NCBI RefSeq assembly: GCF_007679495.1
Contig: NZ_VEGP01000004.1
Span: 62,001-126,000 of the forward strand
DNA length: 64,000 nt
Source of the DNA: Paenibacillus sp. 32O-W
GTDB lineage: Bacteria; Bacillota; Bacilli; Paenibacillales; NBRC-103111
Direction: 5' to 3'
Shown in pieces: positions 5,542 to 33,467 of the stretch. The notes under the pieces were generated by a model. It did not search any database and was not told where the DNA came from. It saw only the letters and a program-made list of their open reading frames with translations. The stretch's first letter is position 1; every line of letters begins with the position of its first letter. A program made the position numbers and the translations under genes.

Positions 5542-6480
5542 CTATTGCTGCCCGGTCTCCGTCACGTAATCCTCAACGATATCTTCGGCCCGGATCGTTC
5601 CGATAAAGAACCAATCCATGTACAGATCACCGAATTTTTCATAAAACCAGTCGCTGCTGTATCGGCTGAAGCTTCCGAACAGGTCATAGAGGTCGCCAAC
5701 GGTATTGTACCTCTTGTTTCCGGAATCATCGACCCATTCCACGACCTGGTTCAGGTCAACCTCTCTGATTTCATGCATTTGCGTATAGAGAATAGTGCCG
5801 TTAATTCTGTAGTAGATTTCTACAAGGTCCTCATATTCATGGCCCTTTAGCAATTGCCAGCCTTCCATCTCGCCGGTAGCCGGTTCGTGGGACAGGGGAC
5901 GCTTCGCATCCGGATACCACTCCTTATAGGTCTCGAACGGAACTTCGCCTTGGGGTACAGTGCCGATATACGCAGTAGAGGTTGGCCCGTAAAAATGAAC
6001 GTCCATCTCCATAATTTCGGCCACAGCTCTGATGGGGGCATAGGTCGTCCCATTGTACAGAATGTTGCTCGTTTCTACCGGAATTCCATGAACCTGGATG
6101 GCAATATCATTGAATACGGCTTCGATCGTGTCAAATCTCTTGTCCTCCAGCACGACCTCTTCTTCGGAGGCGGCGGCCGCCTGCGCTTCTGCGGCATCAA
6201 TGACTTCATCCGGTACTTCTCCGGCCGGAAGCATTCCAATATAAGCGGTTCTAGTTTTGTCATAATAGATGACGTCCCAGCCCAGCATCTCGGCCAGATT
6301 TCGAACCGGAACATAAGTCGTGCCCTCATACAGCAAGTTGTTGCTGACAGAGGTGACCCCGTTCACCTTGACCTGGATTTGGTTGAATCCAACCTCAATT
6401 TTCTCGGGCTCCGCGGCCGAAGCATAGCCGGGCAGGAGCAGCAGGAAAGCCATCATTAGTGCGATCAAACTCTTTCTCAT
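5542..6480 (-). CDS. Secreted protein with two copper-amine-oxidase N-terminal-like stalk domains
   Basis: A 312-residue exported protein. The first 22 residues form a signal peptide ending at YASA/AEP. Two repeats of the small stalk domain common in Paenibacillus follow: the first carries LLYEGTTYVPVRNLAEMLGW and ends TAYIG, the second carries ILYNGTTYAPIRAVAEIM and also ends TAYIG. They are separated by an Ala/Glu-rich linker near residue 90. The C-terminal 120 residues are rich in aromatic and acidic residues and match no family I know. These domains are not copper oxidases by themselves; they usually serve as extracellular scaffold modules. It stands alone on the minus strand. Confidence 0.85.
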   Translation of the reverse strand: MRKSLIALMMAFLLLLPGYASAAEPEKIEVGFNQIQVKVNGVTSVSNNLLYEGTTYVPVRNLAEMLGWDVIYYDKTRTAYIGMLPAGEVPDEVIDAAEAQAAAASEEEVVLEDKRFDTIEAVFNDIAIQVHGIPVETSNILYNGTTYAPIRAVAEIMEMDVHFYGPTSTAYIGTVPQGEVPFETYKEWYPDAKRPLSHEPATGEMEGWQLLKGHEYEDLVEIYYRINGTILYTQMHEIREVDLNQVVEWVDDSGNKRYNTVGDLYDLFGSFSRYSSDWFYEKFGDLYMDWFFIGTIRAEDIVEDYVTETGQQ

Positions 6481-31063: not shown

Positions 31064-32059
31064 ATGAAGCCTAAAGTGTTCATAACCAAACCGATACCGA
31101 AGGATGTGCTGGATTATATTTCCCGTCATGCCTCTGTCGATGTATGGGAGTCGGAAGGTCCCGTTCCGGAGCAGGTATTACGGGGAAAACTGTCTGAGGC
31201 GGAGGGGCTTCTAACCTCCGGATTGCGGGTCGACGGCCGACTGCTGGATCTGGCTCCCCGGTTAAGGGTGGTGAGCAGCATTTCGGTCGGGTACAATCAT
31301 CTGGACGTAGCGGAGCTGGCCCGGCGGAGGATCATGGCCACGCATACTCCGGGTGTGCTGGATGAAACGGTGGCTGATCTGATCTTTGGGCTTATTCTGG
31401 CCGCGGCCCGCCGTATACCGGAATTGGACCATTACGTCCGTGCGGGACGGTGGAAGGCGGGAAGCCAGGAGCATCTGTTCGGAATAGACGTACACCATGC
31501 GGTGCTGGGCATCGTTGGAATGGGACGGATTGGCGAGGCTGTAGCAAGAAGGGCCAAATTCGGCTTCGGAATGGAGATTTTGTATGCGAACCGGACCAGG
31601 AAGCCGGAGGCCGAAGCGGAGCTGGGGGCACGGCATTGCGATTTGAACGAACTGTTGGAGCTGGCCGATTATATGGTGCTGATGGTTCCGCTAACCGAAC
31701 AGACCAGGCAAATGATCGGGGCCGAGCAGTTTGCGCGGATGAAGCCGACAGCCGTCTTCGTGAACGCTTCCCGCGGGCAAACGGTGGATGAACAGGCGCT
31801 GGTGGAAGCGCTGCGGAACGGCACGATTCGCTCGGCCGGATTGGATGTCTTCGCGGAGGAGCCGATTAGCGGCGACCATCCGCTCGTCTCTCTGCCGAAT
31901 ACGGTGCTGGTTCCCCATATCGGCTCGGCAACCGCGAAGACACGGTATGATATGGCCAAGCTTGCTGCCCAAGACTTGGTGGCCGCTCTGCAGGGCAGAC
32001 GCCCCGCTCATCCGCTTCCCGAGCTTCGCTCCTTGCTGGAGGATAACTTGCCGGGGTGA
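31064..32059 (+). CDS. D-2-hydroxyacid dehydrogenase (glyoxylate/hydroxypyruvate reductase-like)
   Basis: A 331-residue NAD(P)H-dependent enzyme. The nucleotide motif GIVGMGRIGEAVARRA is near residue 150. The catalytic residues are in place: Arg in VNASRGQTVDE, Glu in DVFAEEP, and His in LVPHIGSAT. VGYNHLDV near 70 is the substrate-loop signature. It probably reduces glyoxylate or hydroxypyruvate, or oxidises D-glycerate; exact substrate is inferred. GAGGAGG precedes the ATG. It appears to be a single-gene unit. Confidence 0.92.
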   Translation: MKPKVFITKPIPKDVLDYISRHASVDVWESEGPVPEQVLRGKLSEAEGLLTSGLRVDGRLLDLAPRLRVVSSISVGYNHLDVAELARRRIMATHTPGVLDETVADLIFGLILAAARRIPELDHYVRAGRWKAGSQEHLFGIDVHHAVLGIVGMGRIGEAVARRAKFGFGMEILYANRTRKPEAEAELGARHCDLNELLELADYMVLMVPLTEQTRQMIGAEQFARMKPTAVFVNASRGQTVDEQALVEALRNGTIRSAGLDVFAEEPISGDHPLVSLPNTVLVPHIGSATAKTRYDMAKLAAQDLVAALQGRRPAHPLPELRSLLEDNLPG

Positions 32060-32177
32060 TTGCCGTAATCACCGACGATGTCAATGGATTGCCGCTCAGT
32101 CTGTCAGATGGTCAAAATTGATTCTCTTGCCATATGGCTCTTTAATAAGTTTTATTATTTGTCAAATTTGCCTGGAC

Positions 32178-32194
32178 GGGTGTCATTGACACCC
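32178..32194. promoter_or_regulatory. Perfect dyad over the -35 of ccdA
   Basis: GGGTGTCATTGACACCC has two perfect 8-base arms around one central T. The -35 hexamer TTGACA (32186-32191) lies inside the right arm. It could be a protein operator; its loss of a T-tract argues against a terminator. Confidence 0.5.
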
Positions 32195-32214
32195 CCATCT
32201 TCTTATACTACTAT
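32186..32214 (+). promoter_or_regulatory. ccdA promoter
   Basis: TTGACA at 32186-32191 and TACTAT at 32209-32214 are 17 bases apart, an almost ideal sigma-A promoter. The start codon follows about 50 bases downstream. Confidence 0.65.
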
Positions 32215-32221
32215 TTGTAGT
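32207..32221. promoter_or_regulatory. Second dyad over the -10 of ccdA
   Basis: ACTAC at 32207-32211 and GTAGT at 32217-32221 are inverted around TATTT and cover the -10. The shape recalls BlaI/MecI/CopY operators (TACTAC...GTAGTA), but the spacing differs by one base and no such repressor gene is nearby. Confidence 0.4.
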
Positions 32222-32270
32222 GTGATGTACAGCCGTTGGCCTGCGGCTATATACAGATAAGAAGGTGATT

Positions 32271-32987
32271 GTGCTGAATGCTGCCGATTTAAGCCTCTGG
32301 ATCGTTTTCGGAGCAGGCATCCTCTCGTTCGTCTCGCCCTGCTGTCTTCCTTTGTACCCGTCCTATCTGTCTTATATTACGGGAGTGTCGGTTAAAGATC
32401 TTCAGGAAGGCAAAGGATTATTGGAGAGACGAGCGATGCTCCACACCGTTTTCTTCATACTGGGATTTTCCATTATTTTCGTTGCCCTTGGATTCTCTTT
32501 AAGCTTTATCGGGTCCTTCTTCGCGGAATATCAAAACCTGATCCGCAAGCTGGGCGGTATCTTCATTGCCGTCATGGGGCTGATTATGTTGGGGATATTT
32601 ACGCCCAAAGCATTGATGAAGGACCGCCGGTTTACTTTCCGGAGCAAGCCGCTCGGGTACTTCGGGTCTGTCCTCGTAGGTGTGACCTATGCAGCCGGCT
32701 GGACACCCTGTGTCGGCCCTATCTTGGCCGCTGTTATCACTCTTGGAGTAAGCAATCCGGATCAGGCTTTCTTCTATACGCTAGCCTATACGATCGGATT
32801 TGCCATTCCATTCTTCATCATGGCTTTCTTCATTGGCAAGATGAAATGGATGATGCGGCGTTCCGGGTTGATTATGAAAATAGGCGGGGGCCTGATGGTC
32901 CTTACAGGGATTTTGCTATACACCGACCAAATGACGAAAATCACCATTTATTTTATCGAACTATATGGGGGCTTTACCGGATTCTAG
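32271..32987 (+). CDS. ccdA: Cytochrome c biogenesis / thiol-disulfide membrane protein CcdA
   Basis: A 238-residue membrane protein with six hydrophobic segments. The two redox cysteines are in SPCCLPLYPSYLSY (first segment) and GWTPCVGPIL (fourth segment), as in CcdA/DsbD. It carries electrons from cytoplasmic thioredoxin across the membrane for cytochrome c maturation or spore cortex work. I start it at GTG 32271 because AAGG of AGAAGGTGATT is 5 bases upstream; GTG 32265 overlaps that site. No CcmG/ResA-like partner is adjacent. A hairpin follows at 33080-33111. Confidence 0.93.
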   Translation: MLNAADLSLWIVFGAGILSFVSPCCLPLYPSYLSYITGVSVKDLQEGKGLLERRAMLHTVFFILGFSIIFVALGFSLSFIGSFFAEYQNLIRKLGGIFIAVMGLIMLGIFTPKALMKDRRFTFRSKPLGYFGSVLVGVTYAAGWTPCVGPILAAVITLGVSNPDQAFFYTLAYTIGFAIPFFIMAFFIGKMKWMMRRSGLIMKIGGGLMVLTGILLYTDQMTKITIYFIELYGGFTGF

Positions 32988-33079
32988 TCTCGCTATAACT
33001 CTTCTCTATAATTACATTAATAGGAAAATGAAAGATGAATTGACAATGTCTTCCTTCTGTAGTATAGTTATGCTTATAT

Positions 33080-33111
33080 AAGGCATTTCGCTCGTTGGAG
33101 CGGGATGCCTT
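33080..33111 (+). terminator. Hairpin after ccdA
   Basis: AAGGCAT and CGCTC pair with GAGCG and ATGCCTT. Only a short T-rich tail (CGTTTCTCT) follows, so its use as a terminator is moderately sure. Confidence 0.55.
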
Positions 33112-33275
33112 CGTTTCTCTATAGGAATGTGGCAACTTGCCGGTTTAAAGGGTGGTGATGACGCCATGCATGTTCTTGTTCTTGGAACATAACACCTATC
33201 AGCCGTTCGCAGCTTGGATTTGAGGCTGCAGGAGCAAGTCCAACAGGATTATAATAGAACAGGTGAAGGATGGAT

Positions 33276-33467
33276 ATGAAAAATTTTCCTAACAAAAGCA
33301 AATCGGAGAAGGAACCTCCTGTCATTGAGGCGAAAGTATGGATATGTACGGGAGGTCAGTGTCCGGGCTGGATGCGGGCGGAGTTTACTTTCGCGGAACA
33401 GCCGGAATGCCCGCTGTGTCACTCGGAGATGAGCCTTGGGGTTAAAGTGGTGCCTAAAATATCGTAA
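33276..33467 (+). CDS. ydjO: YdjO-like small zinc-ribbon protein
   Basis: A 63-residue protein with WICTGGQCPGWMR and CPLCHSEM, a four-cysteine zinc-ribbon pattern like B. subtilis YdjO, which is described as cold-inducible. ATG 33276 has AGGTGAAGG upstream; ATG 33270 lies immediately after that site and is less likely. The biochemical role is not known. It lies 28 bases before the Cse60 gene. Confidence 0.82.
   Translation: MKNFPNKSKSEKEPPVIEAKVWICTGGQCPGWMRAEFTFAEQPECPLCHSEMSLGVKVVPKIS

Follow-up and report, generated by a model that had tools for sequence, protein, structure and literature searches.

A predicted BlaI-type operator with a five-base spacer on the -10 element of an accessory ccdA promoter in Paenibacillus sp. 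32O-W

The closest described relatives of the system reported here are the BlaI-BlaR1 and MecI-MecR1 pairs of Staphylococcus and Bacillus, in which, as in this case, a repressor of the PF03965 family is encoded beside an M56 membrane protease with an HExxH motif, a dyad operator lies on the promoter, and autoregulation is likely. CcdA and ResA are partners in the thiol pathway of Bacillus subtilis (CcdA-ResA/StoA), and homologues of both proteins are the apparent targets here. In Staphylococcus aureus, the binding of a beta-lactam outside the cell leads BlaR1 to cut BlaI on the cytoplasmic side (PMC9834060). Known BlaI/MecI/CopY sites are of the TACA/TGTA type (TACA-NN-TGTA), with four bases between TAC and GTA (hereafter N4), and the CopY operator TACANNTGTA (KACANNTGTA) has the same spacing, CopY itself carrying C-terminal CXC motifs (PMC7253601). 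The nearest precedent for a wider spacing is BlaI_0696 of Clostridium thermocellum, which controls three operons through inverted repeats that are five nucleotides apart (PMC8457756), as they are here, so that the odd spacing is not unprecedented; its half-site is, however, GTCTAT rather than ACTAC, each target carries two copies of the motif, and the associated genes are of the BlaR1 type, not CcdA or ResA. Among the literature matches listed, none dealt with BlaI control of ccdA or resA or with a BlaI regulon of the CcdA, M56, copper, TlpA or ResA kind, which is not proof of absence.

Here, we describe a promoter in a window of 64,000 nucleotides from Paenibacillus sp. 32O-W (genome of 5.76 Mb in 235 contigs), where a ccdA-like gene, an accessory copy, occupies positions 32271–32987 of the forward strand. 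Its product matches DsbD_TM (PF02683) with 46.2 bits against a cut-off of 27.1, as expected of CcdA. The start codon is probably the GTG at 32271 rather than the GTG at 32265, because the orthologue in Paenibacillus sp. J2TS4 has ATG at the former position; a Shine-Dalgarno-like sequence read from the DNA, AAGAAGGTGA (32259–32268), is identical in that strain. The promoter consists of a -35 hexamer TTGACA (32186–32191), a 17-base spacer and a -10 hexamer TACTAT (32209–32214), and agrees with the consensus at 10 of 12 positions, which makes the "almost ideal" of the original prediction slightly generous; of the other operator promoters listed in the phasing comparison, most have TACAAT as their -10. 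Both dyads that had been placed on this promoter were found. A 17-nt palindrome with 8-base arms and one central base, GGGTGTCATTGACACCC, lies on the -35 (32178–32194), and the dyad ACTAC-TATTT-GTAGT (ACTACTATTTGTAGT, 32207–32221), which starts 15 bases after the end of the -35 hexamer, covers the -10 within a predicted 20-bp operator, TATACTACTATTTGTAGTGT (32204–32223). The latter dyad had been likened to BlaI/MecI/CopY sites, and the likeness holds: very probably, it serves as an operator of the BlaI type, with one base more than the classical site.

Farther from the operator, a block 5' of the -35 (32155–32171), containing TTTGTCAAATTT at 32158–32169, is common to J2TS4 and in part to P. 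abyssi. Downstream of ccdA, a promoter matching 11 of 12 consensus positions (TTGACA-17-TATAGT) and, directly after it, a terminator-like hairpin of 14 pairs (33080–33111) together span 33040–33111, upstream of a ydjO-like gene at 33270; the hairpin is possibly the ccdA terminator or a leader structure. A search of 31900–33400 against Rfam and a plasmid search with the ccdA promoter gave no match.

The original prediction held that no gene for such a repressor was nearby, which is correct for the surroundings of ccdA but gives a false picture of the genome as a whole: of its eight PF03965 matches, two are BlaI genes of the fitting type on other contigs, C19 (72.5 bits) and C169 (78.6 bits; gathering score 22.6). 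The C19 operon reads blaI, M56 protease, ccdA, DsbD_2, TlpA and adjoins a divergent multicopper oxidase gene and a gene for a zf_CopZ protein; its ccdA is one of the three ccdA matches in the genome and the closest paralogue of the window copy (70% identical). The C169 cluster is BlaI-M56-TlpA-Lgt-OsmC, without ccdA. The C19 cluster looks recently spread, since P. validus and two species of Cohnella have it in nearly identical form, at 95–100% per protein.

The M56 protein of C19 matches Pfam M56 at 45.3 bits, as a protease of the BlaR1/MecR1 type should, and HExxH was present in 45 of 45 distinct M56 homologues. In contrast to BlaR1 and MecR1, the C19 protein is only 286 aa long: it keeps the HExxH motif and the membrane segments, but nothing follows the final hydrophobic segment, so that the beta-lactam sensor domain is absent. 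It gave 27.2 bits with the NCBIfam BlaR1 model (cut-off 1200). The 287-aa M56 protein of C169, judged by length only, is likewise too short for that domain. Similarities to CopY (or CopR) are the PF03965 fold, the TAC...GTA dyad and a copper-flavoured neighbourhood; in contrast to CopY, which has the N4 operator and CXC motifs, the C19 BlaI contains no cysteine, falls below the CopY_TcrY cut-off (41.7 against 121.95 bits) and is paired with an M56 protein. No solved structure matching the C19 BlaI by sequence was found. Open frames of 421–478 aa at some BlaI matches raised the idea of a BlaI-M56 fusion, which was rejected after five loci had been read: BlaI ends normally in all of them (open frames of 140–180 aa), and M56 is the next gene.

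The repressor genes themselves carry the same element on their promoters. A 20-bp motif, TATACTACWATNNRTAGTGT, which was fitted to its four sites, matches the genome perfectly at those four places, namely the C19 blaI promoter, the C169 blaI promoter, the promoter of a lone resA-like gene on contig C33 and the window ccdA promoter; at exactly one mismatch there is none in 5.76 Mb, and when ≤3 mismatches are allowed the motif has 17 matches and a control 10. The C19 blaI promoter reads TTGACA-N16-ACTACAATTTGTAGTGT and the window promoter TTGACA-N15-ACTACTATTTGTAGTGT, with ACTACAATTTGTAGT and ACTACTATTTGTAGT as the corresponding dyads, and the 20-bp elements form two pairs, window with C19 and C33 with C169, each differing at 1 of 20 positions. 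As known for BlaI and MecI, the same element thus stands on the repressor's own promoter, at both C19 and C169, and a regulator is not missing but would be supplied in trans. The C33 gene scores 170.8 as ResA (cut-off 170), is 45% identical to a ResA-like gene on contig C202 and lies near a heavy-metal P-type ATPase gene.

Copy number, by comparison, says little. At ≤1 mismatch, the window dyad is the sole copy of ACTAC-N5-GTAGT in the 64 kb, but 0.40 would be expected and at least one was present in 34 of 100 shuffles, so that its mere presence is not significant. The genome-wide search that had been proposed yielded four perfect sites (the C19 blaI promoter, a second dyad on C19 in the gap between M56 and ccdA, the window, and contig C7) against about 5.5 expected by simple arithmetic (4^-10, equal bases), and at ≤1 mismatch the backwards control pattern was commoner than the dyad (354 against 26). 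In 12 relatives, perfect 15-mers numbered 0–14 per genome, against 10–30 for the backwards pattern. With counts near chance and a commoner control, the number of copies proves nothing, and the weight falls on where the copies lie and on the extended 20-bp match.

On contig C7 (L174, 69–1034), the perfect site stands behind an intact M56 gene that has outlived the decayed blaI gene, of which a broken remnant precedes it. In P. senegalensis (L176), an N5 operator lies upstream of blaI (4812), and three more lie within 115 bp behind M56 (6094–6208), forming an operator array. Contig 14 of P. chondroitinus (L177–L179 and beyond) holds eleven perfect N5 sites over about 61 kb, a distribution that suggests a large BlaI-controlled island.

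Where a TTGACN lies upstream, the distance from it to the dyad varies by no more than one base. Perfect sites from the fetched loci were taken in both orientations and identical contexts merged, giving 196 oriented contexts, and TTGACN was sought 10–22 bases upstream of each. It was found in 38, against about 2.5 expected by arithmetic over all 13 positions, and in each of the 38 at a distance of either 15 (22 cases) or 16 bases (16 cases); the remaining contexts had no TTGACN in that range. In these promoters, the dyad therefore covers the -10 as TACNNT, 17–18 bases from the -35, and overlaps the promoter core of its target, as BlaI/MecI operators do.

One departure from the known BlaI/MecI systems lies in the spacing: the window operator is TAC-N5-GTA and not the textbook N4. 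In this genome, five other BlaI genes have dyads resembling TAC-N4-GTA (0–2 arm mismatches), and those of C19 and C169 have N5, the latter with one mismatch. We compared 57 distinct blaI upstream regions of Paenibacillaceae, 250 nt each (77 loci were read, of which 6 lacked a BlaI match, and the other 71 were merged to 57 where the last 100 bases were the same), assigning each BlaI to a class by the better of two BlaI queries rather than by a tree. With the subclade to which the C19 and C169 repressors belong, perfect nnTAC-N5-GTAnn occurred in 30 of 43 regions and the N4 form in none of the 43 (shuffle means 0.42 and 0.28), ACTAC arms being listed for 27 of the 30; with the other BlaI proteins, N4 occurred in 8 of 14 and N5 in 1 of 14 (shuffle means 0.08 and 0.04), the sole N5 exception being L247. 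Neither perfect dyad was present in 13 of the 43 (C169 among these) and 5 of the 14. Most subclade BlaI proteins have an FNxVMTVMNR-like stretch where the others read EWKPKTIRTLL-like, a stretch that we take, from BlaI/MecI structures, to be the recognition helix; the residues at this supposed helix are thus a further difference from BlaI and MecI. A BlaI of the subclade type or a weaker relative was matched in 89 of 103 Paenibacillaceae genomes.

Conservation separates the two dyads. In Paenibacillus sp. J2TS4, the ccdA orthologue is 88% identical and syntenic. TTGACA and ACTACAATTCGTAGTGTG, with perfect dyad arms, are retained in its promoter, and much of the flanking sequence has diverged. 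By the test of conservation that the original prediction had set for itself, the -10 dyad passes and the -35 palindrome fails, the corresponding sequence being GGAGTCATTGACATGC. Of 61 loci fetched with the CcdA protein, 22 are from Paenibacillus or Cohnella, and 13 of these have a site within 300 nt upstream (≤1 mismatch), three of those being near-identical copies; none of the 39 other loci has one. Of the nine without a site, two are broken or partial genes (L135, L142); P. senegalensis, of the same genus, has no such operator upstream of its ccdA. In a CcdA tree of 29 rows, which includes 26 of the 61 loci, the window and J2TS4 proteins are sisters (98/93) beside P. senegalensis (81/80), and the operon copies of P. 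validus and P. roseus adjoin (94/97). The operator label requires 4 changes on this tree against a shuffled mean of 10.0, and none of 500 shuffles was as low. The identity of the operator, its phasing on the -10, its conservation and the presence of repressor genes in trans, with their neighbours, can all be read from the DNA.

The original prediction had suggested two regulators or one dimeric pair. A second regulator, or a second BlaI-type contact, on the -35 palindrome is in our view unlikely. The palindrome is perfect over 17 nt and sits exactly on the -35, and its core GTCATTGAC is also present in the J2TS4 promoter and at the blaI promoter of L019; the outer arms are, however, lost in J2TS4, and the arm around the -35, 8 bases in the window, is 4 in those two promoters and ≤2 in the other 35 of the 38 operator promoters. 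A genome search for the palindrome gave no second copy at ≤2 mismatches, and the window contains three perfect 17-mer palindromes of this type against 1.3 expected from 20 Markov shuffles, so that the palindrome as such is unremarkable and only its placement on the -35 is notable. Slightly less credible is an origin as a hairpin, either as the terminator of the dehydrogenase gene upstream or as a relic of the hairpin that M56 genes of operon copies have at their stop codon. The palindrome was flagged as terminator-like (RNA fold of -13 kcal/mol, z -3.1), and a hairpin with GGGTGT closes several M56 genes immediately ahead of a ccdA operator, but a good T tract is absent, the element lies 118 nt past the stop codon of the upstream gene, and the homology to M56 tails (...DGCH-stop in the window against ...GGCS-stop in M56) was judged by eye only. 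The relic version was dropped, the syntenic J2TS4 promoter having neither the hairpin nor GGGTGT. Most likely, the palindrome is private to this strain, a coincidence around TTGACA and probably no operator, which leaves room for a role in this one strain.

The explanation that we consider likely as a whole is that a BlaI-M56 system acting in trans represses the accessory ccdA gene through the -10 dyad and that copper or thiol stress induces it, the -35 palindrome being coincidental. For binding, cleavage, inducer and physiological output, we infer the following course. BlaI from C19 or C169 would act on the window operator, obstructing RNA polymerase as a dimer bound to ACTAC-N5-GTAGT; under copper or thiol stress outside the cytoplasm, the M56 protease would cleave BlaI; expression of the accessory ccdA of the window and the accessory resA of C33 would then rise along with that of the BlaI-M56 operons; and electron flow to extracytoplasmic thiols would increase. 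Release of BlaI by a signal other than a beta-lactam is suggested by the C19 M56 protein, which keeps HExxH and has no sensor domain, and by the C169 protein of nearly the same length. The signal is the weakest step of the model: copper or thiol stress is a guess from the neighbouring genes, which are those for multicopper oxidases, zf_CopZ, CcdA and TlpA and, in relatives, rhodanese, the caa3 assembly factor CtaG, Lgt and BdbC/BdbD. A vestigial operator, passed on together with the gene but no longer occupied by a repressor, is very improbable. P. senegalensis ccdA does lack the site, and T at the centre makes the -10 (TACTAT) weaker, but the arms are perfect in the window and J2TS4 although much of the flanks has diverged, and the genome does encode repressors that match.

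Many M56 proteins of these loci carry a penultimate C-terminal cysteine (GGCS, GSCS, SGCM and similar), among them those of L043, L045, L047, L051, L084, L085, L087, L088, L118 and L173. Distinct M56 genes were tabulated after near-identical tails had been merged, and two loci with less than 2 kb of sequence behind the gene were omitted. The cysteine occurred in 9 of 9 distinct M56 proteins fetched beside ccdA, against 8 of 36 from the BlaI search alone. Of the 19 M56 genes with the cysteine, 12 had a CcdA or TlpA gene within 4 kb on the same strand, and of the 28 that lack it none did, but many of these loci had entered the set through their ccdA; when loci from the BlaI search alone are counted, the figures are 2 of 8 and 0 of 26. 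BdbC/BdbD genes follow in six operons without the cysteine and also, or possibly, in two with it (L055, L307). A tie between the cysteine and thiol reductases is suggestive only. In L316, L317, L318, L319, L326 and L327, subclade BlaI-M56 pairs are followed by BdbD-BdbC disulfide genes, an arrangement pointing to thiol control.

A broader reading, possible but rather doubtful as a whole, joins these observations: the window ccdA would be part of a regulon scattered over the genome, under a BlaI subclade not yet described, whose changed helix recognizes TAC-N5-GTA, the bare C-terminus of M56, often with its penultimate cysteine, would sense copper or thiol oxidation, and CcdA and ResA would re-reduce that cysteine and so close the loop.

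BlaI-M56 pairs are usually taken as beta-lactam sensors. The version described here adjoins genes for extracytoplasmic disulfide and copper functions, and its neighbouring genes suggest a role in extracytoplasmic thiol and copper homeostasis; compared with BlaI-BlaR1 and MecI-MecR1, its apparent targets are thiol and copper genes, one of them unlinked. Annotating such BlaI-M56 genes as beta-lactam resistance may therefore mislead. The version is widespread in the Paenibacillaceae, its 15-bp operator is distinct and can be predicted, and not all of its apparent targets are linked to it. The rule that N5 goes with the FNxVMTVMNR-type helix and N4 with the EWKPKTIRTLL type would make these regulons predictable from sequence, and the two variants form a clean pair with which to ask how a dimer of winged-helix proteins accommodates one additional base pair.
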